Below are positions 1-35,788 of a stretch of DNA of 39,579 bases, piece after piece. The position numbers and the translations under genes are program-made. Source of the stretch: a virus; the IMG/VR virus record IMGVR_UViG_3300045974_000454, positions 1-39,579 of that record. One strand, 5' to 3'. Positions within the stretch are counted from its first letter, which is position 1. The number at the start of each line of letters is the position of its first letter. Below the pieces are notes generated by a model that was given only the letters and a program-made list of their open reading frames with translations, was not told where the DNA came from and did no database searches.

Positions 1-311
1 GTACTATCTGGTTTAACTATCATTGTAAATGTACTTGTTCCAGTTATTGCATTACTTGCTATTGCTGGGTCTGTATATGTTAAAGCAGTAGCTCCAGATG
101 GTGTTTTTGAAAATATATAGAATGTATCTGCCTTCTTTGCTCCTTGTGTATAGTTGAAGCTTATTGTAGCTAATATATTGCCATCTGCAGTTGAAGTAGA
201 TGAGGCTGTTAACGATGATATAACACCATCAGGGTATCCAGAAGTTCTATAGCTTGTTGTTCCATCAAAGGCTTCTGCACCACTTCCTGCTTCTGATACT
301 ACTGTTGTTGC
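1..311 (-). repeat. FN3-like repeat 3 of leftmost fibre (cut by window edge)
   Basis: Residues about 1254 onward. It begins ATTVVSEA, then FDGTTSYR, then DGNILATISFNYTQG followed by AD. It resumes the repeat array after the amidotransferase-like segment, so that segment interrupts a regular FN3-like array. The end of the repeat is outside the window. Confidence 0.55.
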
Positions 312-14800: not shown

Positions 14801-15558
14801 TTCTTTGCATCTACTGTAAATTCATATACTTCACCAGGTATTAATCCTGATACTGTAAATAGTGCTATAAATGAACCTTGAGTTCCTGCACCTGCTGATA
14901 GAGAGTATGAGAAGTATTGATTATTCCATATAAGTGTATTTTTTTGTTTATAGTATATTGTAAACCCAATAACATTTCTTAATAGTATTGAGCCTACAGG
15001 ATTCCCTATTGCTACTGATATGGATGATGTTTTTGAGCCACTATTAAATGCACTTGTGCATTGTGATAGTAGTATCCGTGGTATGTCTGGAGGTGTTTGG
15101 CCTATTGATGGAATATCTGATCCATCACCAAGTGTTGATGATAATACTATTGTGCCTGATGTATTTGGGAATTGATATACTCTATCACCAGTTAGTGTTT
15201 CTATATCAAATTTTGCAGTACCAGTAGGTGAATTGTATAATGTAAATTTTGATGCATCTATATTTAGAGTGTTTGTCCTATCTAGTACTAGGTTAGATAG
15301 TATATTATTTATTGCTATTGAATATATACCATCACTGTTATCTATTAATAAATTACCAGTAGTTGGATAGCTTAATATATTATTATGTCTATGGTCTGAG
15401 CGTGATGAGGTTGTATTGTAACCATTGAGGTCTGATGTGGCTAGGAAGGACACATATCCAGATGCTGGAACTGAGCCTATATTGCCAGCAGTTAATACAA
15501 CAGACTCTAGACCTATTATATCTGAAGGGAAATGTTTGTGACCAGTATATACATTCAT
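11827..15558 (-). CDS. Long tail fibre with about six FN3 domains, a CBM5/12-like module and Ig-like C-terminus
   Basis: 1243 aa. The N-terminus has two His motifs often seen in phage fibre proteins (GHKHFPSDIIGL at 6-17 and SDHRHN at 54-59). About six FN3-like domains follow, near 158-270, 275-372, 376-474, 478-572, 577-685 and 690-780, with proline-rich joins such as TPPSQPTN and IPPNPPTGL. Residues 805-960 are unrecognised. Residues 966-1016 look like CBM5/12 (WRGAWSSTASYVVGDEVSY, later TWW). A collagen-like GGATGATG linker comes next. Residues 1034-1149 match a module in the 580-aa neighbour (VDLDYDG, NITAG, QTFNRIKA), and the last ~90 residues are Ig-like, ending in FFCTITS. The gene is preceded by one of the two longer spacers and its conserved 22-nt element, so it may have its own promoter. 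Confidence 0.85.
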   Translation of the reverse strand: MNVYTGHKHFPSDIIGLESVVLTAGNIGSVPASGYVSFLATSDLNGYNTTSSRSDHRHNNILSYPTTGNLLIDNSDGIYSIAINNILSNLVLDRTNTLNIDASKFTLYNSPTGTAKFDIETLTGDRVYQFPNTSGTIVLSSTLGDGSDIPSIGQTPPDIPRILLSQCTSAFNSGSKTSSISVAIGNPVGSILLRNVIGFTIYYKQKNTLIWNNQYFSYSLSAGAGTQGSFIALFTVSGLIPGEVYEFTVDAKNAFLAQSLKSTIIEITSAASTVAPALPLNLTTLYLGTIGSYAKVRVDWSQNLEDDILEYRLYRSTTINPPAQISGNNFYTGVRNSCSADFNTSTPHYYILLVVVNKSGLISTQTTDLLLPTSPADPIISSQNITTSINGNGSCIINVSFNDSSVSSGNFPYVFTLKKGNDPESIKTFYGTTAKAFTFIDLIPNTSYTINVGFITPINVYSGLVLLGTITTAADTTPPSQPTNFNYNLFYSSVNFTWSKNTELDFSTYKLYLSDAATGCSITEDNRKYTGSVNSFLTPITRGATTWYAKLVAIDTSGNVSTPASASFSFDQRPPRPTHNNLDITSSQITGSVVVDDLGQVAAYIKISFSDTQRDGYGYYEYQIYKNIGEEQYFTAPTPIYPATSSFTFLVLPNTTYNVNTRYVDSTQNKSVWAVNGGIVVSTPKNNIPPNPPTGLTARSGFGSVILKWNNPTNKDLKYVDVYRYTTNNSAVAEVVAHVSGNTYSDVGLSAGDTFYYWTKAVNTSDLSSVFSNVASGTTIQLLPAELDTKARVDFIVRDLIFQFKHIESGQASTTLDYLPQAGSAGIIFEDILYAVSTSGSILNAQNSYIIATLTKSPNIASFSASAFSSSLPNLNKNQIIIALTSAQPFTETNNYACYVRQANSMALEGAIIREATITTAKIKNLDAAVVSAVQVNAGSILISGSGGAQTSLSTIKDKAVAATRNVWRGAWSSTASYVVGDEVSYVNSSYGCILDHTSTLSTAPPTGADTNTWWSVRSKAAAGGATGATGLAALTVNLSNSSQNIQTDADGLNGVYTGTGTTITLSEGAVDLDYDGSGANNGRWAISINSVNITAGAITDSGTYVTVADASNIIADTAYISFSLSGRRLSGESFTIRKDQTFNRIKAPVMYDVKVLSSAGNIFRIGDAKTTVLSAHVFRNGVEVTDEPYMIPDRFKWERISYYPDPVGDAAWNAAFARGPKYISITIDSVNTMATFFCTITS
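12499..12663 (-). other. CBM5/12-like (chitin-binding-type) segment in long fibre
   Basis: Residues 966-1020 of the 1243-aa fibre. The W-x-S-x(3)-Y-x(2)-GD-x-V-x-Y pattern followed by Y-x-C and a terminal TWW is the usual signature of carbohydrate-binding module family 5/12. It suggests binding to a GlcNAc-type glycan, but substrate cannot be read from sequence. Confidence 0.65.
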
Positions 15559-15595: not shown

Positions 15596-16189
15596 TTATT
15601 TAATTCTTATGAACCCTTTTAATCCCAAATTGCCATTGTTCTTTGATATATATCTGGTCTTTTTGAATATACCTTGCCCCTCACCTTGGTCTGGTCCACC
15701 ACCTGTGTTTCCCTCTATTGCTGTGAATGTATCTATTGTATTTTGTGCTACCACTATCCCCGTATGGCCATTAAAGTTAGATACTGTCCCACCAGCTCTT
15801 GAGTGTATTGATATATCTGCTGGTTCTAGTTTATATGTTTTCATCAGCAATCCCTGTTTAGTTATTACTCTATATCTAAATGGATTAGCGTTAGCATAAT
15901 TCCACATCATTGATACTCTAGCATATTTAGGAAGTTGATCTTTTAACCCAGCTCTTTGCGCTCCTAGGTGATAACAATAAACTACTGTAGCCATACAATA
16001 AGGATTCCCTTTTGGTAGTCCTACATACCTTAATATAGCCTCTACTTGTGGTCCATCATTATTTCCTGTTTTTTCTGTTATGCCTACGAATGAAGATGCG
16101 CTATCAAGTGTATACTTTTGAAGATCACCAGAAAGCGCATTATTCACTGTAAGCACCAATATTAATATAAACAATAAAAGTGCTTTCAT
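15596..16189 (-). CDS. Endolysin: secreted CHAP-domain peptidoglycan hydrolase
   Basis: 197 aa. Residues 1-21 (MKALLLFILILVLTVNNALSG) form a Sec-type signal peptide or signal anchor. The rest is a single CHAP domain of the NlpC/P60 superfamily. The probable catalytic Cys is Cys65 in GNPYCMATVVYCY. His142 in NFNGHTGIVVAQ and the acidic residue in AIEGNTGG (Glu159) complete the usual layout. CHAP enzymes cut peptide bonds or the amide link in peptidoglycan; which one cannot be told here. There is no separate cell-wall-binding domain. The signal peptide means export may not need the holin pore, as with SAR endolysins. An AGGGAT ribosome binding site lies 6 nt before the ATG. It follows the holin candidate and the 50-aa basic protein. 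Confidence 0.88.
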   Translation of the reverse strand: MKALLLFILILVLTVNNALSGDLQKYTLDSASSFVGITEKTGNNDGPQVEAILRYVGLPKGNPYCMATVVYCYHLGAQRAGLKDQLPKYARVSMMWNYANANPFRYRVITKQGLLMKTYKLEPADISIHSRAGGTVSNFNGHTGIVVAQNTIDTFTAIEGNTGGGPDQGEGQGIFKKTRYISKNNGNLGLKGFIRIK

Positions 16190-16201
16190 ATTTGTATCCC
16201 T

Positions 16202-16354
16202 CTATCGGCCCTTCTTCAGCCTTACTGCTTGTTTATTTTTTGGTCTTGAATTTTTGCTATCGCCTATTGATGTTCTCTTTTTCTTTGATCCTTTGCTAAA
16301 CTGGATCTTGCTATTTGAAGATGTGGTCTTTACTTTCTTATCTTTGTTAGCCAT
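16202..16354 (-). CDS. Small very basic 50-aa protein in lysis cassette
   Basis: A 50-codon frame beginning ATG at 16354 and ending TAG, with 16 Lys and 4 Arg and few acidic residues; it starts MANKDKKVKTTSSNSK and ends AVRLKKGR. GGGG lies 5 nt before the ATG inside the 3' end of the holin gene, so initiation is well supported. It is 3 nt from the holin stop and 12 nt from the endolysin start, leaving no other gene for this stretch. There is no membrane segment, signal peptide or zinc motif. It matches no family I recognise. It could bind nucleic acid, bind acidic cell-wall or membrane components, or modulate the holin; none of these is shown. Confidence 0.7.
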   Translation of the reverse strand: MANKDKKVKTTSSNSKIQFSKGSKKKRTSIGDSKNSRPKNKQAVRLKKGR

Positions 16355-16357
16355 TAT

Positions 16358-16672
16358 TTACCCCAAGTTTCCGGCAGCGATGGCAATAGCCAATCCCACC
16401 CAAGATAGTCCTACGAACACTGCTGCTGCAATATTATCTTCTTTGAAGATTTCATTACTTACATTGAAACAAAGGCCACCAAGGAAGCGCATAAATAGTG
16501 CTCCAAGGAAGATATATAGAGATACTTTAACCCCAATAAATGATACTACCTGTAGGTCTGTTAATGCATTATGTAGTGAGTACATAAGTGTTAAACCTGA
16601 TGCTACTAACAAAAAGAAACCTAATACTACTTCATTCAACTTGTCAAACTGTGCTTTTAAAAACTCAAACAT
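16358..16672 (-). CDS. Holin candidate, three transmembrane segments
   Basis: 104 aa with three predicted membrane helices at about 15-32 (VVLGFFLLVASGLTLMYS), 42-63 and 81-101 (AAAVFVGLSWVGLAIAIAA). The N-terminus is short and amphipathic (MFEFLKAQFDKLNE). Size and three-helix layout fit class I holins, which open lesions in the inner membrane at a set time. The position just before the endolysin supports this. I do not recognise a specific holin family by sequence, so a different small membrane protein remains possible. A strong AAAGGGGA ribosome binding site lies about 7 nt before the ATG. The stop codon is 3 nt from the 50-aa basic gene. Confidence 0.7.
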   Translation of the reverse strand: MFEFLKAQFDKLNEVVLGFFLLVASGLTLMYSLHNALTDLQVVSFIGVKVSLYIFLGALFMRFLGGLCFNVSNEIFKEDNIAAAVFVGLSWVGLAIAIAAGNLG

Positions 16673-16684
16673 TTTAATTCCCCT

Positions 16685-17986
16685 TTAATATTTTATTATG
16701 GCTACTAAAGCCATATTCCTTGGTCTTGTTTCTGCTCCACCAAATGCCCCTGAGTTTCCTGGTGTGCCATAGTAATGTGAATCTCCACCTGAAGTACTAT
16801 CTTGCACATATGTTGGAGTTGTATCTGGATGTTGGTGAGCCCTAATCATATCCATCTGTTCAATATTATTTAGTTGTCTGCCAATATCTTTACCAGCGCC
16901 CATATCAAGACATCTTATAAATTCACCAAGCAAATTTGGTAGTATAAATCTAAGCGGGTTGGCATGTGTCCCAAATGTAGTTCCTAGTACTACAGCTAGA
17001 TCTGGGTAATCTGTTTTTAGATAGTCTGATCCATCAGCTATTAAAAATCCATTTGGCGGCGTTGTTGATGTATAATAAAGCACTGTGCCTGGTGGCATAA
17101 GATGGCTTATTACATAGTCTCCCTTTGTTCCAGCTAAATATTCAGCATTTAGATTTTGTACTAGTGTTGTTGTTTTCATCTTTGTTATTACAGCTTCTGT
17201 TATTGTTGCTACTAGTGCGTTAAGGCTATCAGTTTCAACTATGCTTGATGTTAGTTTCGATGGTGTTAGATGTGATGCTGATGCTCCATTTGATACTATT
17301 AATGATGATCCATTTGTAATGTTTATATTACCTGATGTTGCTATACCATTCCCTATCGCTGAAGCTGTAGATCCATTATCAATAGTTAATGTGCCACCAA
17401 TTCTAGTATTACCATCTACATTTAGATTACCTGATGCTGATAGTGATGATGATAATATAACTGGTTTTGTTATTGATATTGAATTTGGTGTTATCGAAAG
17501 TATTGTTGCTATTTTTGTGAAACTACCATCTATACTATTGAAATCTATTGATGTAGAAAATTCAGTTGTAAGTTTGTTATCTGACGTATTAATGTATAGA
17601 GCAGCCTTACCTGTCTTATTCCATATAAGCTTCGTATCACCTATATTATAGTCACCAATTAATGTATCACCAAACTTTGATGCACAGTTTATCTTTAGTG
17701 TATTTATCAATGTGCGATAGTCATCACTATGGGCTTTTCTTATTGCTGTGATGTTTGTAAGGATATCGTCTGTGAATGTATAGTTAGTATCTGTTATATC
17801 TATTGGAGTTAATGAATCATTTAGTTGCCATATCTTAAATTTGCTAGTATATGACAATGGCATTTCAAGTATGATATCATTGTACTGTACACCGCCATTT
17901 AGTATAACATTTTCTTTCGTATTATATATTGGACCTGTAGTAGCTCCAGTTGGCTTTACTTTATAAAGATTTATTCCTCTAGACAT
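16685..17986 (-). CDS. Tail fibre with C-terminal tail-collar domain
   Basis: 433 aa. Residues 1-290 are an unrecognised beta-rich shaft with repeated DGN/GNI motifs (SGNLNVDGNTRIGGTLTI, TSGNINITNG). Residues 297-433 form a phage tail-collar domain: MPPGTVLYYTSTTPPNGFL, then DYPDLAVVLGTTFG, RFILPNLLGEFIRC, and an AETRPRNMALVAIIKY end. An H-x-H at 384-386 (RAHQHP) resembles the metal-binding His pairs of trimeric fibre tips. Such proteins are usually short tail fibres or fibre tips contacting the host. It sits 12 nt upstream of the holin gene. A TAGGAG ribosome binding site precedes the ATG. Confidence 0.88.
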   Translation of the reverse strand: MSRGINLYKVKPTGATTGPIYNTKENVILNGGVQYNDIILEMPLSYTSKFKIWQLNDSLTPIDITDTNYTFTDDILTNITAIRKAHSDDYRTLINTLKINCASKFGDTLIGDYNIGDTKLIWNKTGKAALYINTSDNKLTTEFSTSIDFNSIDGSFTKIATILSITPNSISITKPVILSSSLSASGNLNVDGNTRIGGTLTIDNGSTASAIGNGIATSGNINITNGSSLIVSNGASASHLTPSKLTSSIVETDSLNALVATITEAVITKMKTTTLVQNLNAEYLAGTKGDYVISHLMPPGTVLYYTSTTPPNGFLIADGSDYLKTDYPDLAVVLGTTFGTHANPLRFILPNLLGEFIRCLDMGAGKDIGRQLNNIEQMDMIRAHQHPDTTPTYVQDSTSGGDSHYYGTPGNSGAFGGAETRPRNMALVAIIKY

Positions 17987-17995
17987 CTATAACTC

Positions 17996-19693
17996 CTACT
18001 GTATTACTGAATTTATTATATTTTTACCAATCAATGGCTTTGTAGATATTGTTATGTTTTCTTTTACTACCTTATCTACAAACTTAATATATGTGTTATT
18101 GTTATATATAGATGCTTCTGGATTTGGTGAATTGATTTCATCTTCAAGTACATTATTGTCTATGTATGATAATGCTACATCATTTAACTGTAATGAGAAT
18201 TTCTTACTTGCTATTGAGTTATAAACTAGATTGAGGTCAGTCTTTGTTATTTTATTTTTATCAAATATAACCTCTGTACTATCTCCACAATAAATGAGTT
18301 CTAATATATCATTCAACTTATCAGTTTCTACAGACACATATGCTAAGTGATAACATTCTTTAGATGTTAAGAATGCTTGATATGAACTAATAGAGCTGAA
18401 AGAACATCCATTTACTTCATACTTTTGTGAGTTTGTCTTCCCATCATCTTCACCAATAAAGGCGTAAAATAAACATGTAGGCTTTGTATTTGCGCCATAT
18501 GCGGAAAAGTCAGGTGATAAATATAGCGCAACCATTTTTGCTCTTGATATTTGGATGCTATTTAAGTCTAAATATTCAAATACATAGTATTTATTTTCTA
18601 TTTGATATGATGCATAAGCTATATAGTAATTAATATCCCATTCACTATTTAATACGAATACTCCATCATATGAATAATCATCAATTTTCATCCATAATAT
18701 ATCTATATTATCTGATGGAGTTCCAACTAGCAATGTATTAGTTGTATATGAAGCTGCTAATGTATTTGTTATTTTGTCATAAATATAGATATTTACTTCA
18801 CCAAGCTTACTTATTGCTGGTGGCATTTGTGTCTTTATATATTTACCATTTAGTATTTTGCATAATTGTTTTGTGTATGGCCTATATGCTCCTGGTAATG
18901 ATGCCATGTTCTTTAAATAATATTCTGGTAGTCTATAGAACATGTTATTTCCACTTGATGAAATGGAGCGAATTGTAAGGTTTTGTATTAATAAATACCA
19001 TGGTTCATTTATATTTGCTACTGGCTTCTTAACGAAGCTAAAGTCTTTGTTTGAAGCATAGAATATTGTACCAGTTCTATTGGTATGGCATATAAACTGA
19101 TTCCCAGTATTTGTAATATAAAATTCATAATTACCAATGCTACTTTGTTGAACTAGTGTGCCATCAAGGTCTTTGAATACTGGCTCTAGCTTTAGGCACT
19201 CTTTCTTTGTTGATGTTGTGTCTGCCCATTCAGCTACTAATAAAGATTCACTTGATTTATTTATATAGATGTATGCTTCACCATTGCCTGATTCTACTAA
19301 ATACATTTCTTCTGATAATTGTGCTCCAGTTTCATCATATATCTTTACTGACTTGTCTATTAGTAATGTATTCTCAGCTAATTTTATTTTATGTCTATAG
19401 AAGATTGGATATTTCGATCCTGTCATCTTTGAGTATTTAGCTATATGTGTTAATAGTATCTTATCAGATCCAACTACAAATGTTTTATCAGTAAGCTCTA
19501 CTTGATTTACATCCATATTAAGTAGTATATCCATACTTGAGTTTGTGTCTATTGATACAAAGTCAGCAGGACATATGTTAGATTCATTTGTATTTAAGTA
19601 TAGTATTGGTACTTGTGATGGTGATATTGTAGATCCAGCATTCACAAACTGTAGCCCAATTGAATTTGGTTGTATTTCTAGGTCAAATATCAT
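17996..19693 (-). CDS. Unrecognised structural protein, 'MIFDLEI' N-terminus
   Basis: 565 aa with no family I recognise. It is rich in Tyr, Ser, Asn and Ile with mostly beta-type patterns and no membrane or enzyme signature. The start MIFDLEIQ resembles MKFDLEIS of the 876-aa protein two genes upstream, suggesting a shared N-terminal docking segment. It lies between a 453-aa unknown and the tail-collar fibre, with 10-12 nt spacers, so a tail appendage role is likely. AGGA precedes the ATG through a TATATATATA tract. Confidence 0.55.
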   Translation of the reverse strand: MIFDLEIQPNSIGLQFVNAGSTISPSQVPILYLNTNESNICPADFVSIDTNSSMDILLNMDVNQVELTDKTFVVGSDKILLTHIAKYSKMTGSKYPIFYRHKIKLAENTLLIDKSVKIYDETGAQLSEEMYLVESGNGEAYIYINKSSESLLVAEWADTTSTKKECLKLEPVFKDLDGTLVQQSSIGNYEFYITNTGNQFICHTNRTGTIFYASNKDFSFVKKPVANINEPWYLLIQNLTIRSISSSGNNMFYRLPEYYLKNMASLPGAYRPYTKQLCKILNGKYIKTQMPPAISKLGEVNIYIYDKITNTLAASYTTNTLLVGTPSDNIDILWMKIDDYSYDGVFVLNSEWDINYYIAYASYQIENKYYVFEYLDLNSIQISRAKMVALYLSPDFSAYGANTKPTCLFYAFIGEDDGKTNSQKYEVNGCSFSSISSYQAFLTSKECYHLAYVSVETDKLNDILELIYCGDSTEVIFDKNKITKTDLNLVYNSIASKKFSLQLNDVALSYIDNNVLEDEINSPNPEASIYNNNTYIKFVDKVVKENITISTKPLIGKNIINSVIQ

Positions 19694-21079: not shown

Positions 21080-23710
21080 CTAGTTTGTATATAATAAGAA
21101 TGGGTTTATTAGTTGTTGGTCTAGCCCTGGACATTTATAAGCGCTTCTGCTGCCTACACCAAACCATTCATCTAATGTTGCATCTAATGCTACGTTATGT
21201 CTGCAATATAAGTTTGCACCTTCAGGGCCACCAAGATAATGCATTCTTGTTATATTATTTGGGTGATTACATCTGTTCGTTACGCCATCAACTATATTAC
21301 CCTGTGAGTATTTACATACATAAGTCGCGTAGTTAGTGCCATACTGACTAGACATATAATCAGATAGTGTTAAATGTGAATAAGGTCCAATATAGCTATT
21401 GATTGTATTTGATTCTGTTGATAATGTGAATGTGCTATCATTCTCTGGAGATGCTACTATTTCCATTCCAGTACTTGATGTAGATAGGATTGTGTCTAGG
21501 AATGTATCTGAATGTTCTGCTGTTATTTTTGCATTCATTCCACTACGCTTAACTCTTATTAAGTAGCCAATAACATTATTGTCATTTTCACCAGGAAGTT
21601 GGCTATTAAATGTGATCTCTGTATATTTTGGTACAGTAAATCTAAAGTAGTCGAATGTATTGTCTGTTAATAACCATTTATCATTAAAAGCTGAAGTTAC
21701 GATACTTCTTATTGTAAAGTCAGATGCAGCTACTTTTGTGAATGATGTATGTACTGTTGTTAATATGTTTGGGAATAATAGCGCATTATTTGTTGAGTTA
21801 CCTATTGATGGATTATATAAAAATAACTTTTTGCCATAAAATTCTTTTTGTGTATTAACTACTGTTATTGATGTTGGTTTTATATATGAGCTCTTTATTG
21901 TATACTTACTTGTCGCCCCTATCTGCTGGTCTGCTGTTATTTCAGCATAAGCTATACGTCTTCCAGATAGTTCGTATGTATTAATATCCTCTGTCATGTA
22001 ATAATCAAAGCATGAAGATGATGTAAAGAATTCTTTTGTTATTCCGAATAGCCCACCCTTATCTCTTATCTGCCCTAATACAGGATCATCAGCAGTTATG
22101 ATGAATGTAAATACATTATCACTTGTTACTCCTGTTAGGTCTTGTGGTAGATACATCTTATTAAAGGTCCCAGTTTGTATATTAAATCCGCTAGCTGCGA
22201 CTGAACTAACTGTTCCAACCCATTGCTTTTGTACAAAACATGTGTCTTTTATATTTGAGTTTATTATTGTTGTTGTAAATTCTCCTGAAAGATTTGTTAT
22301 CCCAGAGATAGAATTTGTTTCATCAGCAGGTATGCCCCATTGTACAGAGCCGTTAATGTCATCATCTAGTGTTAATTTCACATTCTTATTTGGTAATGGT
22401 ACACCCTCTGAGTTTAGTATTTTAACTGTTATCGGCTTACCAACAAATGGGCGTATCTCATTGTCGCCATTGTCTATGATTATAGTCTCTGCTATGTTGC
22501 TTTTATTTACTTCATTATTTACAAAGCACAAGGCGCCATCACCAAAGTTTACTGACCTTGGTGAAACATCAATCTTCATATGTCGTATGTTTTTTGCTGT
22601 ATCTATTGTACCTCTACTATATGTTATTATTGGATATAGTTGGCCACTTAATGATGTAGATACAACTACTGGATTGCTTGTTGTATTTGTAAACTTTATT
22701 AGGTTCTTTAGTATTTTTACATTCCATCCTGTTACTGGATAGTTTGTTATAAAATTATTTTCTATGTTCTCTACTGGATACTGATTAAAGAATTCAGTTG
22801 TTGATTTGCCAGCAGCTATTGTTTTATTGATTTGCTGTGAAAAGTTTATCTTTTTTGTATTCAGATAGATATACTTATCACCATTTGAGAGTGTTGATAT
22901 CGTAAATAGGTTATCAATACGTGATTTAGTAAATAGATATGTGTGTATTAAGTTTGAGAATATTCCATTGTCTTTTATGATTATGATATTATCATCTTTG
23001 TTTATATAAGCATTACCATCATTCATTGAGCTTTTTACTGTATTCCATACTCCTATTTTTATCCCAGAGCCATCTACTATTTTATTAGGCACCATGCTAT
23101 AAGATGTTGTGTATAGGCCAGTATATCCACCAGTTATATCAGTTGATACTATTATACTTCCTAATTTATATTTTGCGCTTGATATGTCTGTCGTATACAT
23201 TACTGGTACATTGCTTTCGCTTATATACTGAAAATCTTGGTACACATCTGCAATGCCACCAGATGATAGCTTACTTGTAATAATCCTAATTGAGGATGTA
23301 TTAGTATCTGTCGGAATTTTTATACTATATCTATTAAATTCTCCATCATAATCAAGTAAGAGTCTTACAGTGTCATTGGAAAATGCTACTGGATATTTGT
23401 GGAATATTACCGTCCCAGTATTGAAGAATGGTATTATGCTACCTCTTTTGATTATAGACTTGGCTAATGTTAGTTCGCCAGTGTTCATGATCCTTGAATT
23501 AAAGTAGCTTGGGTCTATATTATTATTCCATTTAGAATAATCAATTAACCTAAATCTTGATGTATCTATAGGCACAGATGTTGTCGCCATCGTGCTATTA
23601 AATCTACCAGTAAGTGATGATGTTGCTACTGGGAAAAAGATATTAGCTAGCTTATCTTTCCCTGCTTGTGTTAAAACGTCACTTACGCTTATCTCTAAAT
23701 CAAATTTCAT
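21080..23710 (-). CDS. Large tail-appendage protein with bacterial Ig-like domain
   Basis: 876 aa. It begins MKFDLEISVS, similar to the 565-aa protein. Residues 1-400 are beta-rich and unrecognised. Residues about 412-490 look like a bacterial Ig-like (Big_1-type) domain: FVGKPITVKILNSEGVPLP, NVKLTLDD, then GITNLSGEFTTTI. The C-terminal 80 residues carry four cysteines (799, 814, 836, 860) with several histidines, for example NRCNHP and LYCRHN. No catalytic motif is visible. The gene follows the nuclease gene by 2 nt, so the nuclease is embedded in the structural operon. AAGGA precedes the ATG. Probably a virion adhesin or fibre. Confidence 0.65.
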   Translation of the reverse strand: MKFDLEISVSDVLTQAGKDKLANIFFPVATSSLTGRFNSTMATTSVPIDTSRFRLIDYSKWNNNIDPSYFNSRIMNTGELTLAKSIIKRGSIIPFFNTGTVIFHKYPVAFSNDTVRLLLDYDGEFNRYSIKIPTDTNTSSIRIITSKLSSGGIADVYQDFQYISESNVPVMYTTDISSAKYKLGSIIVSTDITGGYTGLYTTSYSMVPNKIVDGSGIKIGVWNTVKSSMNDGNAYINKDDNIIIIKDNGIFSNLIHTYLFTKSRIDNLFTISTLSNGDKYIYLNTKKINFSQQINKTIAAGKSTTEFFNQYPVENIENNFITNYPVTGWNVKILKNLIKFTNTTSNPVVVSTSLSGQLYPIITYSRGTIDTAKNIRHMKIDVSPRSVNFGDGALCFVNNEVNKSNIAETIIIDNGDNEIRPFVGKPITVKILNSEGVPLPNKNVKLTLDDDINGSVQWGIPADETNSISGITNLSGEFTTTIINSNIKDTCFVQKQWVGTVSSVAASGFNIQTGTFNKMYLPQDLTGVTSDNVFTFIITADDPVLGQIRDKGGLFGITKEFFTSSSCFDYYMTEDINTYELSGRRIAYAEITADQQIGATSKYTIKSSYIKPTSITVVNTQKEFYGKKLFLYNPSIGNSTNNALLFPNILTTVHTSFTKVAASDFTIRSIVTSAFNDKWLLTDNTFDYFRFTVPKYTEITFNSQLPGENDNNVIGYLIRVKRSGMNAKITAEHSDTFLDTILSTSSTGMEIVASPENDSTFTLSTESNTINSYIGPYSHLTLSDYMSSQYGTNYATYVCKYSQGNIVDGVTNRCNHPNNITRMHYLGGPEGANLYCRHNVALDATLDEWFGVGSRSAYKCPGLDQQLINPFLLYTN

Positions 23711-23712
23711 AT

Positions 23713-24564
23713 CTATTTATCCTTAATACAGATGTCTCTATGGCCACATCCGAAACATTGGAAGTCACCTATTGGCGTTTCTAAATGTTTGTTATACATA
23801 AACTTTGATAAAAATCCATCTTCATATAGTTCTTTTGCATAATCTTGTGAATATATAAAGTTGTAATCTCTTGGAGGGACTTGATTGTTTGTTAGATATT
23901 CGTGAAGCTTTATATATCTATCAAATATATTCTTGGAATTTAACTCGTATAGGATAATGCCATCAACTGTTGGATATAAAATACCATCTATTAGAGCTAG
24001 TGATATTTCAAATTCCTTTATCTCGCCAGTATCCCTTCGTATATAAACCAGGTAAAACTTATCTAATCTTCCTATAAAACAATTCAGATATACTATACAT
24101 TGTAGCAAGTGCTCTATCTTTGGTTTTGCTTTATTCCATTGTGATCCAAAGATTTCGCTTACAGTCCACTTATTGGAACCAATAGATTTTATTTCAACTC
24201 CAGATTCAATATCATCAACTTTAATAATTGCGTCAAGCTTACCACTTATGTTATGTGTTTCATTAATAAACTTTACACCTTTTTCTACCATAGAGCCATT
24301 CTTATCTAAAACTGATAGTAGCATATACTCAGTATAGTCTCCGAGCTTCCTAGCTATCATTCTGTTCGTATTTATGGTACTTTCTGACAGCCCGATACAT
24401 GAGTAGTATGCAGCTCTCATACACATGCCATGGACTTTAGTATGACCTTTTGATTTATTTATTATTAGATTACATGATGCATATACTGGATAGTATTTAC
24501 CGATGTGCTCTATATCTTCTCTTTTATTGTTTAGTGTATAAATCTCTATCTGTTTATCTATCAT
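23713..24564 (-). CDS. Cas4-like PD-(D/E)XK iron-sulfur nuclease
   Basis: 283 aa. The motif order fits the Cas4/AddB-type RecB nuclease fold: Cys48 in GMCMRAAYY (like the CPRxAYY of the family), Glu79 in GDYTEY, Asp111 in SGKLDAII, Glu124-x-Lys126 in GVEIKS, and Gln155 in HLLQCIVYL. The C-terminal Cys270-x2-Cys273-x5-Cys279 (FQCFGCGHRDIC) completes a four-cysteine set expected to hold a 4Fe-4S cluster. Relatives are DNA exonucleases acting on single-stranded ends; no helicase domain is present. The start overlaps the upstream gene's TGA (ATGA), so it is translationally coupled to the 94-aa protein. Phage-encoded Cas4 proteins are known, but this one sits between tail genes. Its role here (DNA repair, end processing, packaging, or interference with CRISPR adaptation) cannot be settled. 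Confidence 0.82.
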   Translation of the reverse strand: MIDKQIEIYTLNNKREDIEHIGKYYPVYASCNLIINKSKGHTKVHGMCMRAAYYSCIGLSESTINTNRMIARKLGDYTEYMLLSVLDKNGSMVEKGVKFINETHNISGKLDAIIKVDDIESGVEIKSIGSNKWTVSEIFGSQWNKAKPKIEHLLQCIVYLNCFIGRLDKFYLVYIRRDTGEIKEFEISLALIDGILYPTVDGIILYELNSKNIFDRYIKLHEYLTNNQVPPRDYNFIYSQDYAKELYEDGFLSKFMYNKHLETPIGDFQCFGCGHRDICIKDK

Positions 24565-24845
24565 ACTATCTCTAAGGCTATTGCCTCTTTTATGTTTTTT
24601 ATATCTTTCTGCATCATGTCAGCTAAGGCTTTAAACTGAAACTTGTACATATCTATCTTATAACAATCCTCAAGTGCTAGCAGGTGTGCATATATAATAT
24701 TCTCTATATTTTTATCTGTTGTTTGTGTTAAGAGATCTTCAAGTGTCGCCTTGATTATATTTAGTGTTTGTATTCTTGATGTTTTTGACACCACTTCATT
24801 TGATGGTGCCATCTCAGCTACTTCTACATACATATCATTTTTCAT
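24561..24845 (-). CDS. Small helical protein coupled to Cas4-like nuclease
   Basis: 94 aa, almost wholly alpha-helical by pattern after residue 20, with possible coiled-coil stretches (NIIKATLEDLL, KALADMMQKDIKNIKEAIA). No family is recognised. It overlaps the 728-aa gene by one base (TAATG) and the nuclease gene by four (ATGA), so both junctions suggest coupled translation. It could be a nuclease partner or a small tail chaperone; the sequence does not decide. Confidence 0.6.
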   Translation of the reverse strand: MKNDMYVEVAEMAPSNEVVSKTSRIQTLNIIKATLEDLLTQTTDKNIENIIYAHLLALEDCYKIDMYKFQFKALADMMQKDIKNIKEAIALEIV

Positions 24846-27031
24846 TATTTATGTCCTTGTATGAAGATGTTTTTGATTGCTGGCGAGATATTGGTGTCAT
24901 TTGTATATAGTGTAAACTTTGTGGCTACAAATAGTTTTGAATCAAATAGGTTATACATTATCTTATTGTGGTATGGCTTAAGGTAACTGACTGGTTGATC
25001 TACTGCAGGAATTAGAATTGCTTCTGTATCATCTTTATAGTAGCTAAAGAATGTTGTGTCAAATGTTCCTAGTAGCGCTAACATATTATAGATTGATTTA
25101 TAGTCTATGTATGTGGCTATCCTATTAAATAATACTCCACAAGGCTTTATGTATGTTGATGCTTTTGTATACTTGATAATTACTGTGTCTATAAATTTAT
25201 TTTGATTATTCTCTGTGGAATGTATTCGGACTATCCCTTTGTTTGGTTCTACTGTGAATGTTCCAGGTTGTGTTGGTGTCGCTCCAAGATGAAGACTGTA
25301 TGTTCCACCACCACTTACTGATATTGATAATGGTATGAATGGGCTATCTAACTGTATTGCCATTGTGTCAGTTATTGTTGTTGGTGCTAATGTTACCACA
25401 TCAAGGTCGCCATTTAAATATGCTGGCATTCCAGCAAGTTTGTATGCAAAGTTGTATGGATATAGCTTGTCACCATAGATATATGAGTCATTTAATAGGC
25501 AGTTGTTTTCTCCAGCTGATGCTACAGTAGATCCAAGTACTGGGTCAAATAATGATTCATGTACATCAACCATACTTATGCCTACTGGTATTGAAACTGT
25601 TCCAGCTACTTCTCTTCCATTTATCTTTATCTTATTATTAAGTCCAATATCTAATGTAATATTTTCTTCATTATTAAGTATCATTGTCCTAAAGTAGTTG
25701 CCTATTTTTGTCCAGTTTTCGAATATTCTTCCATCAGCTGAACTTGGTAATTTATTTGGCATTCCATACGCATCATTTGTACCAATAAATACTTTAGCCT
25801 GTTTAAAATTTATCCCAGATGAAGCTATGCTAAATTTATAAAATGTTTGCTTAAGTTCTTTTTGTGTACCAAATGATATACAAGCCAAGTTATGTGTACT
25901 TGCTCCACCATCCATTATATAGTTTTTTGTAAATGTATACTTTGCAGCTGGTATATATGTACTTGTTATATCATCAATCTGGAAAAAATTTGTGTTGGCG
26001 TCAGTCAGTGAAAGTGAAAGGTATTTGCTAAAATATGAACTGCCATTGTTTGTGTAATCTATAGCGTTTATCTGTACTTTATTAATATCAAAGAAGTCTT
26101 TTATCTCTATTGGCTTTGTTTCGAATGATGCTTGTTTCGAAAAGTTCACATTCCCTAATACCATCAGCTCACTAATTTCAAAAGACGCCTGCTTATTTTG
26201 ATTATAGTTGTTTAATGTAATTGTAAGTTTTAGTGTATTTATTTTTGATTGTTTAAACGTAAACAATGTTTCATCTGACTTATTGATATCTGATACTACC
26301 AAGTCATTGTTATAGTAAGCCTGAAGTCCTATAGATTCTATTGTGCCATATGAGTTTATATAAATCACATTAGCATCAAACTCTGTCATTGATATTTGTA
26401 GTGTAAATATATTCTTAGTGCCAGATGATGCTAGGTACTTGACCATTACTGGTTCGTTAAGTGGTAAGTAGTTTATATTATTAAAATTCTCAAAGTTAAC
26501 AGTGTCTGCTGTGGATGCTGATATTGATATAGGACCATTGTAACATTTTACATTCTCAACACAATATGGCAGTACAACATAGTTTCCTATATTGAATGTT
26601 CTCACATTAGCACCATCTGCGTCTGTTATAATGTCAATGTGCCTACATGAATAGTTTGATAGTTCATTCACTATATTGTTTGCTATTATATTTGAATAAA
26701 GAAATCTTTGTGATATCTTATTCCACTTTATAGTGTCTCTTATATAATCATTTAATATTGGTGTGTTGATCAGCGAGCTTGCATATAGATTAACATTTGA
26801 TAGTGCATATTCAAACATCTCTTTTGATATTAGAGGTGGATTTGTGAATATGTTATTAAAGTATGGATCTTGTATTTGCTCTGTAAAGATACTGAATTTG
26901 GCATCAGCGTAGGTCTTTAACTGATTCAATGTTGGTATTGTTATACCACTCTTCTGTGAAATACCTTTAAGGTATGTTGTTAACCCATTCTTTACTATTG
27001 AAAGTATGTATTTGTTTTTAAATGATATCAT
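24845..27031 (-). CDS. Large baseplate/tail protein, unrecognised (728 aa)
   Basis: 728 aa. Residues 1-125 are largely helical (FKNKYILSIVKNGLTTYLKG at the start). The remainder is beta-rich, with several jelly-roll-like segments such as SISVSGGGTYSLHL near residue 550. The C-terminus (about 640-728) has aromatic and Asp-rich stretches. It resembles the two preceding genes (692 and 680 aa) in size and in having a helical N-terminus followed by beta domains, but clear sequence identity is not visible by eye. No enzyme motif is seen. A wedge-periphery or adhesin-platform role is inferred from operon position. Confidence 0.6.
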   Translation of the reverse strand: MISFKNKYILSIVKNGLTTYLKGISQKSGITIPTLNQLKTYADAKFSIFTEQIQDPYFNNIFTNPPLISKEMFEYALSNVNLYASSLINTPILNDYIRDTIKWNKISQRFLYSNIIANNIVNELSNYSCRHIDIITDADGANVRTFNIGNYVVLPYCVENVKCYNGPISISASTADTVNFENFNNINYLPLNEPVMVKYLASSGTKNIFTLQISMTEFDANVIYINSYGTIESIGLQAYYNNDLVVSDINKSDETLFTFKQSKINTLKLTITLNNYNQNKQASFEISELMVLGNVNFSKQASFETKPIEIKDFFDINKVQINAIDYTNNGSSYFSKYLSLSLTDANTNFFQIDDITSTYIPAAKYTFTKNYIMDGGASTHNLACISFGTQKELKQTFYKFSIASSGINFKQAKVFIGTNDAYGMPNKLPSSADGRIFENWTKIGNYFRTMILNNEENITLDIGLNNKIKINGREVAGTVSIPVGISMVDVHESLFDPVLGSTVASAGENNCLLNDSYIYGDKLYPYNFAYKLAGMPAYLNGDLDVVTLAPTTITDTMAIQLDSPFIPLSISVSGGGTYSLHLGATPTQPGTFTVEPNKGIVRIHSTENNQNKFIDTVIIKYTKASTYIKPCGVLFNRIATYIDYKSIYNMLALLGTFDTTFFSYYKDDTEAILIPAVDQPVSYLKPYHNKIMYNLFDSKLFVATKFTLYTNDTNISPAIKNIFIQGHK

Positions 27032-27040
27032 TTAGGTTCT

Positions 27041-29119
27041 CTATGATAATTCTATTTTATAGTTTTTACATAATGGTGAGAAGTATTTAGTATCCATTAT
27101 AAGTGCAAGATCCTCATACTTATAGTTGAATGATACCATTGCTGAGTATGGCGCATCTATCAATTGTTTTAGCTCTATTGTTGGTGATGAGATATTATTT
27201 GTATCAAGTAAGTGTGATATATCAAATCTTGGCGTGTATGATACATAATAAATTGATTTATCTGAAAATGATCCTTCATTTATCACTATCATATTCTTTG
27301 CTGGCTTATATAGTGTAAACTCTGAACTTCTTAGTTGTCTTGCAAAGCTTCCATTCTTGTACTCTGTTATTGTAATATCAGTCTCACCATTGTTTAACAC
27401 TTCATGCTTTAAGGTTATTAGATTTCCATAATCAACTACTGTTGGATCATGTATCACTTTCTTAAATTGTAAATTAATCCCAGAATTTATATTGCCATTT
27501 ATTATAGTATTAGTTCCAGATTTATACATTAGTTCAAGGTTAACTAAGTCAACATAAATTATAGTATGGCATGTATTATAGTCCTTTGTTGCTATCCATA
27601 ATACTTTATTTTGACCATTATCATTTAAGAAGCACGGTATCTCTTGATTCCCAAGAAATAGTGATAAATCATTTTCAATATCTTCGTAGTATGGAATATA
27701 CTTGACTGTGAATGTAAATAGTGAGTTAGTATTCTCTGTTATTAACTTTCTTAATAGAGTTAAGCTCCCAGCAGATGTTGATGATGATAATAATGTGTCT
27801 TCTCTTTCTCCGAAATAAACTTTTGACGAAAGTCCTTGGGTTAGCCTTATTCCACTATTTTTATATAACTCATCTAATATGTTATATGGATATGGTGCCT
27901 GTATAACATATCTGATATCGCCACCACAAGAAATATGTCCACCAATTGATGCAGTTAGCTCTATAGGGTTATAGCTTAGTTGATATGTTCCTGATGATGA
28001 GTACTGAACTAGTTGTGATATCTGCTTTAGTGTATCAGAACTATATGCCCTCTTCATATCAATCTTTACTCTAAGAGACTTTATGTTTTCAGCTAATATT
28101 ACTCCAGTATTGATATTGATTAAACTTAGCTCTTCTCCATTTGTTAATGGTATCCAGTATCCACCATTGTTCGCTGATACATAAAATGATATACCACTTG
28201 ATGTTATATACTCTGACGTAAGTTTAATATTGCTTATTTGTTTTCCTGTAGAAAAAGGTATAGATACATATGAACCTCTATCATTATATTCATTTGTTAT
28301 TACCTGTATATCTCTTAGCCCTATCGAGTATCTATTCTTAAGTCCAAATCCTGTCTGGACCTGTTGAGCTATTTGTTGCATCAGCTTGACTCTTATATAT
28401 CTTGCATGTACTGCTTCAAACCTAATATAAAAATCATTTTGATCTGTGAATGTACTAATGAATCCATTTACTGGTTTCCATTCAACTCCATCGTTTGATA
28501 CTTCAATAAGCTCAAGTGTCGGATACTTTATTGCTGAATCATTATACATCTTAACGTAGATAGTGTTTACTGCTGTAAACTTTATTAGTTTCAATGTAAG
28601 TGCCAGCGTCAAATTACCTGCATCAAATATGCTTGTATACTTTTCATACTCAAATACTGATGCTATATTACCATCAAAGATTGATTTGATGTCTACATTC
28701 GTATATCCATTCAGTGAGTTTCCTGCACTGCCATTACTATCAGCTTCTATTATGACTGATATTACATCAACAGTGGTACTTTTCTTTATTGGAAGTGACA
28801 AAGACCTATTTGACGTATCTATGTTTAGAGCACTATCTACATTAAATTCTTTATCAATATATTCGAGAGACTCAAATGATTCGAGGAATGATACTTTATC
28901 ATTTGTGTATGAGAATACAATTGAGTTCAATTTACTGTACAGAGATGCCATATTTGATGTTAGTATATCATCAAGTACAGACGATTGATTGTATAACATA
29001 TTTGATTTGCTATATGCAGAATATGTTAACGAATTTAGGTTGCTACATAGATTATCAATCTCAGTGTAGTAATTATCTAATTCAGTAGATGTTATTTCAG
29101 ACCCTTGTTCTATATTCAT
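27041..29119 (-). CDS. Large baseplate/tail protein with discoidin-like domain (692 aa)
   Basis: 692 aa. The first ~95 residues look helical or coiled (ELDNYYTEIDNLCSNLNSL). Residues about 125-275 resemble an F5/8 type C (discoidin) beta-barrel: IYVKMYND, LIEVSNDGVEWKPV, then ARYIRVKL and GLRDIQV. Such domains bind glycans or lipids. The region around 285-385 may be a second related sandwich (FYVSANNGGYWIPLTNG). The rest is beta-rich and unrecognised. It fits a baseplate-attached adhesion platform. It lies 9 nt from each neighbour. Confidence 0.65.
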   Translation of the reverse strand: MNIEQGSEITSTELDNYYTEIDNLCSNLNSLTYSAYSKSNMLYNQSSVLDDILTSNMASLYSKLNSIVFSYTNDKVSFLESFESLEYIDKEFNVDSALNIDTSNRSLSLPIKKSTTVDVISVIIEADSNGSAGNSLNGYTNVDIKSIFDGNIASVFEYEKYTSIFDAGNLTLALTLKLIKFTAVNTIYVKMYNDSAIKYPTLELIEVSNDGVEWKPVNGFISTFTDQNDFYIRFEAVHARYIRVKLMQQIAQQVQTGFGLKNRYSIGLRDIQVITNEYNDRGSYVSIPFSTGKQISNIKLTSEYITSSGISFYVSANNGGYWIPLTNGEELSLININTGVILAENIKSLRVKIDMKRAYSSDTLKQISQLVQYSSSGTYQLSYNPIELTASIGGHISCGGDIRYVIQAPYPYNILDELYKNSGIRLTQGLSSKVYFGEREDTLLSSSTSAGSLTLLRKLITENTNSLFTFTVKYIPYYEDIENDLSLFLGNQEIPCFLNDNGQNKVLWIATKDYNTCHTIIYVDLVNLELMYKSGTNTIINGNINSGINLQFKKVIHDPTVVDYGNLITLKHEVLNNGETDITITEYKNGSFARQLRSSEFTLYKPAKNMIVINEGSFSDKSIYYVSYTPRFDISHLLDTNNISSPTIELKQLIDAPYSAMVSFNYKYEDLALIMDTKYFSPLCKNYKIELS

Positions 29120-32666: not shown

Positions 32667-34583
32667 CTAACTAGAAAAGACCCTGTTATAGTCTGTTGTT
32701 TGTTTTTCTATATAATTTATAGCAAACTTATTTGTCAGTATGTTATATCCTGATATATCTCTACTATCTGTATTTATCACATGTGTTATTGTATCTGACG
32801 TTATTATTGTTCTGTTATCCCAGTCCATATAAAAAGTATCAAATACATTCACTATGTTATAATTGTTAATCCCTATACCTTCATTTGATGTTATTGAATA
32901 TAGATGAAAGTCAGTTGATTGTATATTAATAGCTGAATTGTTCTGATAGTTATAGTTATTGAGTTTATCTGTTAGTAGTTTGATTGTTTGGTTTTCAATT
33001 GCATATATAATTGATGTATCTGATGATAGATCTGATTTATTATTGTATATAAACATCTCTGCCATTGGCTTAGATACTATTGGAGCTAATTTATGATTTT
33101 GTGCTAGTATTTGCAGTATGCAGGATTCTGTGCCTCTAGTCTCAATATTTATAATTGATTCGCAATCAAGTTCAAATAGTATATCAAAATCAATTTCAAA
33201 TCTGTTCGTTTCAACCCCAAATGATATTAGGTCAAGTAAGAAGTCTTGTATTAAATATACCCTTTGCATTGTGAAATTATTTATATTGAATACTGAAGAT
33301 GATATATGTTCCACCAAGCATATAAAGGGCTCACCATTGAATATTACTAAATCACCTATGCTGTATATTACAGACTCTTTCCATAGACCCCTAGCAGCTT
33401 TATATGGATGAAGAATTGATATGTCCATATACTCAACGCCATGAATTTTTTGTGATGGAAAGATTATAAGAAAGTATTTTCTATCTAATGTTGACTTTGT
33501 GTACTCTACCTTTATCGTCTGAATTTCAGATGATTGAAGTTTTCCAAGGTTTGTCATTGAATAAGGTGCAATAAGTGGGTATGCAGTTATGAATTTATCG
33601 TTGTTCGTATCTGAAGATATTACATATAGCATCCTATTATTATTATCAAATATATAATCATTGATAGTATGTGTGCTTATCTCATCCAGATCAAATGATT
33701 CATAACTTTCTAATTGTGCTGGGAAATATGATGTATCATTTAGCCTTGATATGTTTAGCTTATTTGCTATTGTATCTAGTGAAAATACAGCTGTTAATGG
33801 TGTAAAGTCTTCTCTGTCAATATATGTGTAGTCTAATTTTGCTATTCTGCTTTTGATATAAGGCAATAATTTGATAGTTATTCCTTTAGTAAGACCTACT
33901 ACAACTATTGATGATATCTCAACATATTCATTCTTTGTTACTAAATCATAGTCATTTGTTATAAATAGTGTTTCTTTTATATTATTGTAATTAGCATCTA
34001 TGCCAGTTATCTCAAAATATGGATCTACCATTAACAACATATGAGATATATCATAGTTGATTATGTTAACTGTCACTCTAGATTTATTCGCCATAAATGG
34101 TGATACAAACATATGCTCTACATCATTTATTAGGTCTATATCTTCTACTGTATGAGATATAGTAAGTCCAGAGTTTTCAAAAAACATATCAACTGGCAAT
34201 GAATGTCTTGTAAAGTCTGTAAATGAGTTTATGTTCTTTAGCGTATATAGTGTATTTGTATATAAGCTATATCCAGTTATTGGAGTATCACATCTTGGAT
34301 AATTTTGTACTGTCTTATCAACTACATTTATTTGTGATAAATTAAATCTATTTACTCTATCTATAGCTACAAAATCTATCTCTGACAATGTCAAGGTTGG
34401 CAAATAATGTAAATCAAATTTTGCTCTTATGAATTCTGATGATGCAACATCTATCAGCCTTACTGTTTTTGAACAATCATTATTCTTACCATTAGGATTA
34501 ATACTAATTGCATCATAGGTAATATAATTTAACCTATTTATCTCTTTTATTGTTATAGCATTTATTGGATAATAGAATATCAT
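32667..34583 (-). CDS. Baseplate wedge-type protein with CBM5/12-like motif (638 aa)
   Basis: 638 aa, beta-rich with many Ile, Asn, Asp and Tyr. Residues 399-426 read GLWKESVIYSIGDLVIFNGE followed by PFICLVEH, the W-x(5)-Y-x(2)-GD-x-V-x-x-x-G core typical of CBM5/12-like modules, as also seen in the 1243-aa fibre. Elsewhere no family is recognised. It begins 2 nt after the J-like gene. Location in the wedge cluster suggests it attaches to the J-like ring and displays a binding module, but this is inference. Confidence 0.6.
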   Translation of the reverse strand: MIFYYPINAITIKEINRLNYITYDAISINPNGKNNDCSKTVRLIDVASSEFIRAKFDLHYLPTLTLSEIDFVAIDRVNRFNLSQINVVDKTVQNYPRCDTPITGYSLYTNTLYTLKNINSFTDFTRHSLPVDMFFENSGLTISHTVEDIDLINDVEHMFVSPFMANKSRVTVNIINYDISHMLLMVDPYFEITGIDANYNNIKETLFITNDYDLVTKNEYVEISSIVVVGLTKGITIKLLPYIKSRIAKLDYTYIDREDFTPLTAVFSLDTIANKLNISRLNDTSYFPAQLESYESFDLDEISTHTINDYIFDNNNRMLYVISSDTNNDKFITAYPLIAPYSMTNLGKLQSSEIQTIKVEYTKSTLDRKYFLIIFPSQKIHGVEYMDISILHPYKAARGLWKESVIYSIGDLVIFNGEPFICLVEHISSSVFNINNFTMQRVYLIQDFLLDLISFGVETNRFEIDFDILFELDCESIINIETRGTESCILQILAQNHKLAPIVSKPMAEMFIYNNKSDLSSDTSIIYAIENQTIKLLTDKLNNYNYQNNSAINIQSTDFHLYSITSNEGIGINNYNIVNVFDTFYMDWDNRTIITSDTITHVINTDSRDISGYNILTNKFAINYIEKQTTDYNRVFSS

Positions 34584-34585
34584 TA

Positions 34586-35788
34586 TTATACCTGAACTAT
34601 TTTAATTGGCTCAACTATATTTGGCTCTATGATCAATTTTTCAATGTTTGATAGATATATTGTATAGTCTCTCATAGCAAGATTAGCTTCTTCATATAAT
34701 CTAAAATCACCAGAACCTGTATATATTTGTAATGATGTAAGTGTTATTCCAAATACTTCAGATGATGCATATGCTGCTATTTGTTGTAAGTTGATAACCT
34801 TATATTCTGAACCATAGAAATTATTTACATTTTCAGATATTGCATTGTTTATTGACTGTATAGCGTTATCAGATAATGGCTGCGTACCAGAGTTAACTGC
34901 GAATGTCATTACAAGACCTACATAGTTTGGTTTAGATACTGTATAGGTACACCACGCAGGAACCATATTTGAGATATTCTCATTTACAGACTTTATAATA
35001 CTATCTGAAGTTATTGGACTTGTGCCTTGTGCATAGACAGCGAATGAGCCACCACCATATGCTCCATTCACTATCTCTATATTAGATATACCAGGTATTT
35101 CAAGTAGTCTATTTTTAATGCCAAAGTATGAACAAGTAGAGTTTGACTTTAATGAGTTTATTAATCTATATCTATAGTTATCATCACTTTCTTCTTCTCT
35201 TCCTGTGCCTATTGAAGTTGCATTTGTTACTAATAATAGCTTAGATGCTGATCCTGAGTATTTTGTAAAATTATGTGAAGTCAATATTCCTGATGGTATG
35301 AATTTATTATTACCCATAGACATTGTTGCACTAGCATATCCAATATTTGTTGCCTTATTCAATACTACTTCTTCTGTCATTCTAAATACATATTCAATAT
35401 TATTATATGTACCAGTTATCAATGTACCAATTGGTATTACTATATTATTAGATAAACCATCAGCTGATTTATTAATATCACCAAAGGCAACACCATTATT
35501 TGTATAGAATTTAAGACACTTCATGGAGGAAGTAACTTCCGGTTTTGATACTTCTAGCCTCTTCATTCCAAAGAAGTTACGCCCAATATCATTTAATATA
35601 GGTCCAGTAGCTGTCATTAAGCTATTGTTCTGGATATAAGTGTTAATCATATCTTCTGTTATTGTACTCTCAAATGCTATTGATTCAGCTAAACTATGTA
35701 GCTTACTTCCAGGCAAGATTGAGCTAAGGCCAAAAGATGTTTTAAATTTACTTAGAACTCTATATAAGCTGTTGTTTATATCTGACAT
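34586..35788 (-). CDS. Baseplate J-like (gp6/gpJ family) wedge protein
   Basis: 400 aa, near the usual length for the family. Diagnostic segments are LPGSKLHSLAESIAFE (25-40), IPIGTLITG in the middle, GREEESDDNYRYRLINSL (196-213) and IPGISNIEIVNGAYGGGSF (231-249). These match the J-like pattern of a PGS motif, an E-x-D-x-x-Y/F-R-x-R motif, and a PG(V/I) segment. J-like proteins form the ring of baseplate wedges that holds tail fibres and links to the gp25-like protein. The gene starts in a TAATG overlap with the gp25-like gene, the standard order in contractile tails. Confidence 0.88.
   Translation of the reverse strand: MSDINNSLYRVLSKFKTSFGLSSILPGSKLHSLAESIAFESTITEDMINTYIQNNSLMTATGPILNDIGRNFFGMKRLEVSKPEVTSSMKCLKFYTNNGVAFGDINKSADGLSNNIVIPIGTLITGTYNNIEYVFRMTEEVVLNKATNIGYASATMSMGNNKFIPSGILTSHNFTKYSGSASKLLLVTNATSIGTGREEESDDNYRYRLINSLKSNSTCSYFGIKNRLLEIPGISNIEIVNGAYGGGSFAVYAQGTSPITSDSIIKSVNENISNMVPAWCTYTVSKPNYVGLVMTFAVNSGTQPLSDNAIQSINNAISENVNNFYGSEYKVINLQQIAAYASSEVFGITLTSLQIYTGSGDFRLYEEANLAMRDYTIYLSNIEKLIIEPNIVEPIKIVQV

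Follow-up and report, generated by a model that had tools for sequence, protein, structure and literature searches.

The window, a 39,579-bp virus fragment that is the whole stretch of DNA analysed here, carries among its tail genes a gene for a Cas4-like protein of 283 amino acids, which is a known kind of protein at an unusual address. It is probably a replication and recombination nuclease gene that normally lies at the seam between the tail and replication modules and was brought among the tail genes by a rearrangement of tail blocks. The observations made here are the nuclease family of the protein, its predicted fold, its conserved catalytic and cysteine residues, the replication-module context of its relatives, and an altered order of the tail blocks around it. 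The odd position is best taken as the outcome of a rearrangement of gene blocks, rather than as evidence for a new function in the tail.

Essentially all large genes of the window are on the minus strand (Table 1). In the order of transcription, they encode an SLT-domain tail hub, small proteins, baseplate J, and proteins of 638, 263, 231, 680, 692, and 728 aa, followed by the 94-aa ORF, the Cas4-like protein, proteins of 876, 453, and 565 aa, and the tail-collar fibre; after these come a 104-aa DUF350-like protein (a weak match), a CHAP-domain protein, and five large fibre/virion proteins. The flanks, which include baseplate J, an F5/8 type C domain protein, the tail-collar protein, and fibre proteins, bear out the tail-operon position given in the first-pass annotation, and the very short and overlapping junctions described there are present: the 94-aa gene starts within the stop codon of the 728-aa gene (TAATG) and shares 4 nt (ATGA) with the Cas4-like gene, whose stop is followed after 2 nt by the start of the 876-aa gene. 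The plus strand of 23713-24564 has stop codons throughout. For the three nearest neighbours (94, 728, and 876 aa), family searches gave no confident match. The possibility that the 728- and 876-aa neighbours are a disguised polymerase or primase-helicase of similar size was rejected, as they gave no family match and their profiles match tail proteins.

Table 1. Coordinates of the Cas4-like gene, its predicted key residues, and neighbouring genes in the window.
Feature	Position	Strand	Support
Cas4-like PD-(D/E)XK Fe-S nuclease (predicted), 283 aa	23713..24564	-	phrog_1706, 4ic1, and ME3 gp071 matches
94-aa ORF directly upstream of the Cas4-like gene, translationally coupled	24561..24845	-	
728-aa presumed tail protein	24845..27031	-	weak similarity (hhalign E=1.6e-4, prob 50) to tail proteins of 732/689/736 aa in G007/G011/G017
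692-aa F5/8 type C domain virion protein	27041..29119	-	Pfam; related to the tail protein of 1050 aa in G007/G011/G017
876-aa presumed tail protein, directly downstream	21080..23710	-	possibly like the 821-aa tail protein (hhalign E=0.0099, weak)
565-aa tail protein	17996..19693	-	like the 759/783/653-aa protein (hhalign E=4.5e-7, residues 15-400)
Baseplate J / wedge protein	34586..35788	-	phrog_6 E=1.6e-25
Tail-collar domain fibre protein	16685..17986	-	PF07484 E=1.5e-12
C48 codon (C-x-R motif), N-terminal Cys of the predicted Fe-S site	24421..24423	-	18/18
E79 codon at the motif I position (canonical Cas4: His)	24328..24330	-	E in 15/18
D111 ... E124-x-K126, PD-(D/E)XK core	24187..24234	-	18/18
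Q155-x3-Y159, QhxxY motif	24088..24102	-	18/18
C270-x2-C273-x5-C279, three C-terminal Cys	23728..23757	-	18/18, 17/18, 15/18

Profiles, homologues, and the predicted fold support the assignment of the window protein as a putative Cas4-like, RecB-type PD-(D/E)XK nuclease, and the identity as a Cas4-like Fe-S nuclease proposed on first inspection is upheld by them. In PHROGs, the protein matches phrog_1706 (CRISPR/Cas-associated, E=3e-14) and phrog_1990 ("Cas4-domain exonuclease", E=2.5e-4), and the PADLOC Cas4 profile matches at E=7.7e-6. A profile built from an 18-row alignment has one clear match in the PDB, the Sulfolobus Cas4 SSO0001 (4ic1, E=3.2e-5), which spans the core and the C-terminal cysteines. 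The profile search against Cas4 suggested earlier was therefore positive in PHROGs, PADLOC, and PDB 4ic1 and negative in Pfam, where no family (PF01930 included) matched; TIGR00372 (NCBIfam cas4) scored 18.2 bits against a cut-off of 65, below its curated threshold.

The protein has the signature C48-x-R50, E79, D111, E124-x-K126, Q155-x3-Y159 (the QhxxY motif, which reads Q155-CIV-Y159), and C270/C273/C279, and thus the four cysteines of the Cas4 type, one N-terminal and three C-terminal. In the 18-sequence alignment, C48, G75, D111, E124, K126, Q155, Y159, and C270 occur in all rows, R50 and C273 in 17, and E79 and C279 in 15, a conservation judged to be far beyond chance. The residues that had been named as Cas4 landmarks are all present with the right numbering, except that E79 is no textbook landmark: it occupies the His position of the Cas4/RecB motif I and aligns with the motif-I His of SSO0001, KLEB27-3, MTATph1, and SIRV7, so that the window protein differs from Cas4 proper at this residue. 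Judging from the aligned members, Glu79 is a trait of the subfamily. Glutamate at the motif-I position is known among PD-(D/E)XK enzymes, and for this reason nuclease activity is still predicted.

The AlphaFold model, built on the 18-row alignment, has a pLDDT of 86.6 and a pTM of 0.84; an earlier model from a 4-sequence input gave a pLDDT of 38 and was discarded. Its best PDB match by Foldseek is again 4ic1 (E=4.5e-7), and in VIA-align 2 the best match is 4ic1_A (Z 14.4, 190 residues aligned, rmsd 3.4, 26% identity), followed by the phage exonucleases LHK-Exo (13.0) and lambda exo (11.7), with Cas4-Cas1-Cas2 complexes at 12. The window protein resembles SSO0001 in its predicted fold over residues 1-283, its PD-(D/E)XK residues, and its cysteine pattern, but differs from it at Glu79 and in an extra C-terminal stretch (about residues 228-265) ahead of the Cys triad. 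The best viral fold match is gp071 of Acinetobacter phage vB_AbaM_ME3 (E=1e-22, TM 0.83).

The same phage protein (A0A172Q052, annotated hypothetical) matches the window protein at E=2e-13 in a tblastn search of annotated phages, in which SIRV Cas4-like proteins match at E=4e-3. ME3 gp071 belongs to the same subfamily, with 26% identity over residues 46-274, and shares all catalytic residues, C48/C270/C273, and the PIGD-x-x-C tail, its last Cys lying one position off in the alignment; the C-terminal module PIGD-x-x-C-x2-C is common to the window protein and the ME3-type jumbo-phage Cas4-like subfamily. A single-sequence scan of viral contigs gave no close relative, and the family was reached through alignments only: stepwise alignment-based searches yielded about 20 IMG/VR contigs that carry the gene, with products at most 33% identical to that of the window. 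No subfamily member was found in the 84,980 prokaryote genomes scanned, and the plasmid collection gave no match to the window protein. By its sequence, the protein is thus placed in a phage-only Cas4-like subfamily of jumbo myoviruses related to phage ME3, in which it forms a long branch, sister to the remaining members (tree support 94/92). The proteins annotated as Cas4-family in two phages with a related tail hub, gp092 of Bacillus phage KLEB27-3 and CDS0075 of MTATph1, are of the same superfamily but nearer to ordinary Cas4; they keep the motif-I His, fall on a different branch, and have a replication context.

Wherever the neighbours of the gene could be identified in relatives, they are replication, recombination, or nucleotide genes. 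A DnaG-DnaB primase-helicase lies no more than two genes downstream of the Cas4-like gene in 16 of 20 IMG/VR contigs, a count that includes near-duplicates (L055/L056 and L065/L066) and outside which fall ME3, L010, L044, and L067. In ME3, the gene is beside rIIA/rIIB, near ligase, ribonucleotide reductase, and primase-helicase genes and, unlike in the window, far from the tail genes; in L010, it adjoins rIIA/rIIB-like genes (read by eye) near a ligase, and in L044, an AAA ATPase and a dNMP kinase adjoin it. L004 and L041 have it between DNA polymerase III alpha and the primase-helicase; in MTATph1, DNA polymerase follows directly, and in KLEB27-3, the gene is a few genes past RuvC on the opposite strand. 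A shorter member in L028-type siphophages is found beside an ERF/Sak-type annealing protein (by eye) and SSB. The window gene departs from this context, which is the usual one for the ME3-type subfamily and not a strict criterion, in having tail genes on both sides.

In several of these contigs, a second protein is encoded near the Cas4-like gene (L005:10716-11609, L010:10734-11630, L004:9706-10488, L024:5606-6313, and L055:6812-7522), often with a terminal Cys motif (CPSC..C, CSTC...C), and it may be a degenerate Cas4-like paralogue acting as a partner of the Cas4-like protein. A small ORF also stands directly upstream of the Cas4-like gene in several relatives, with undetectable similarity to the 94-aa ORFan of the window. 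A moved cassette was considered, and the comparison of the 94-aa ORF with the 90-94-aa ORFs preceding the gene in L004, L041, and L043 gave no convincing match. Pfam, NCBIfam, and a comparison with the ORFs of relatives yielded no homologue of the 94-aa ORF, the Pfam matches (Dehydratase_LU, E=0.019) being too weak to be believed.

The tail hub is common to the window, ME3, KLEB27-3, and MTATph1, and four genomes (G007, G011, G015, and G017) are considered tail relatives because their hub and baseplate J match those of the window. In three of these (G017, G007, and G011), a single-strand tail module reaches down to the Cas4-like gene. In G017, the called ORFs that begin with the hub and end with the Cas4-like gene all share one strand. 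The order runs from the hub through J, the tail proteins, genes of the sugar/methyltransferase type, and two fibre-like proteins (1419 and 2407 aa) to the Cas4-like protein and the primase-helicase, and the 2407-aa gene stops about 45 nt ahead of the Cas4-like gene. The two long proteins are called fibre-like by eye and have no tail family match; an Erf-like PHROG match within the repetitive 2407-aa protein was taken as spurious. This one-strand order, in which the tail ends, the Cas4-like gene follows, and the primase-helicase comes after it, identifies the gene as the normal seam of the two modules. The run of genes between the tail and replication modules is long in these relatives (L069/L068, G017 at about 37-55 kb; L048-L049, G007 at about 3-30 kb; L047, G011) and contains several sugar-nucleotide, glycosyltransferase, aminotransferase, or methyltransferase-like genes.

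The three genomes share the order J-539-312-821-869-759-181-173-682-1050-732-537, in which the 759/783/653-aa protein is upstream of the 682-1050-732 block. Profile comparison paired window proteins with those of the relatives as 263 with 312 (E=6e-5), 692 with 1050 (hhalign E=1e-17; BLAST E=3e-15), 728 with 732 (1.6e-4), 565 with 759 (4.5e-7), 453 with 869 (0.0016), and, faintly, 876 with 821 (0.0099), which gives the window the order J-...-312-...-1050-732-[94-Cas4]-821-869-759. Two tail blocks are thus swapped in the window, as these pairs put 821-869-759 after and not before 682-1050-732, and the Cas4-like gene is located exactly at the swap. The argument for a rearrangement rests partly on weak matches (728 with 732 at probability 50; 453 with 869 and 876 with 821 weaker).

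The gene would accordingly encode a Cas4-like, RecB-fold, Fe-S-stabilised DNA nuclease serving the replication and recombination of the phage itself, most likely by exonucleolytic trimming of DNA ends, and, by family and context, it would be metal-dependent with a structural Fe-S cluster. The relative from SIRV2 has 5'-to-3' exonuclease and endonuclease activities in vitro (PMC4625639). In the jumbo-myovirus lineage, the gene would normally join a long unidirectional tail module to the replication genes, and a rearrangement of tail blocks would have left it, together with the 94-aa ORF, between the 680-692-728 and 876-453-565 blocks. The most economical course would be a single translocation in an ancestor, in which the 1050-732-Cas4 unit moved upstream of 821-869-759, or the latter moved past the former. 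The operon layout suggests that the Cas4-like protein is now made with the tail proteins, so that late expression alongside the tail genes is likely. Against this reading stands the lack of a replication gene in the window, and for this reason the link to function comes from relatives that are 25-33% identical. A second, normally placed Cas4-like copy may exist beyond the ends of the window, since the contig is incomplete.

A late role of the protein, either in processing DNA ends during packaging or in acting on host or phage DNA at entry after carriage in the tail or virion, is unlikely. The roles put forward on first inspection, namely end processing in packaging, a virion-carried nuclease, and interference with CRISPR adaptation, gained no specific support. 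The gene is packed with coupled starts into a late structural operon, and a scan of the minus strand from 15.0 to 34.6 kb, which is weak evidence, gave no terminator-like site. There is also a precedent for a Cas4-derived protein in a virion-gene setting, the TTV1 nucleocapsid protein TP1 (PMC4625639); however, TP1 is split and is missing both the Fe-S Cys triad and part of the catalytic residues, while the window protein is complete and keeps them all, carries no sequence sign of virion incorporation, and has same-tail relatives in which the gene stays at the replication seam and not among the baseplate genes. It is quite improbable that, in contrast to the inactive protein of TTV1, a catalytically intact Cas4-like nuclease was adopted here for a late or virion-associated function, for example, for tail-carried DNA processing on entry or for action with packaging. 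Interference with host CRISPR adaptation, by feeding host DNA to Cas1-Cas2 or by blocking them, has been proposed for the Cas4-like protein of Campylobacter phages, which was linked to the acquisition of host-derived spacers (PMC4283603); that protein is, similarly, a stand-alone phage protein with four Cys and RecB motifs, a likeness of features that does not imply close sequence kinship. The Cas4-like family is described as widespread in mobile elements with unknown function, and anti-defence roles are often suspected for it (PMC5704561). Here, such interference is very unlikely: no cas1/cas2-like gene was seen among the proteins of the window, neither a CRISPR-like tandem array nor a known CRISPR RNA (Rfam) was found in it, and the genes around subfamily members serve replication and recombination rather than counter-defence.

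An insertion that is recent and stray, or a chimeric join made in assembly, either of them without meaning for the tail operon, would explain why G007, G011, and G017 have no Cas4-like gene at this spot. The first-pass annotation had held that absence from otherwise collinear relatives would point to such an insertion; the absence was found, but the gene is present beside the replication genes of the same relatives, and because of this a relocated replication/recombination gene is preferred over a stray insertion or a dedicated tail component. The gene ends are exact at both junctions (4-nt overlap and 2-nt spacing), its GC (0.317) and GC3 (0.268) match those of its neighbours, the repeats around it are short and imperfect only, and members of the family occur regularly in the lineage, all of which makes an insertion or chimera a poor prospect.

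The relocated-gene reading illustrates how gene order in distant relatives can make sense of an odd gene neighbourhood before one turns to a special function. The analysis further delineates a Cas4-like subfamily of phages, recovered from viral contigs, with a motif-I His-to-Glu change and a tie to primase-helicase genes, so that a role in replication or recombination can be tested directly.

Other features of the tail operon were also noted. The adjacent fibre proteins at 3-4070 and 4083-8492 are paralogues with 30% identity over 469 aa, which suggests a tandem duplication of a receptor-binding gene. CBM_5_12 modules below the Pfam cut-off, at 32667-34583 (next to baseplate J) and in the FN3 fibre protein at 11827-15558, hint at a possible polysaccharide receptor. 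A lysis-like pair at 15596-16672 is composed of the 104-aa protein, which is membrane-like, and the CHAP-domain protein, which is endolysin-like.
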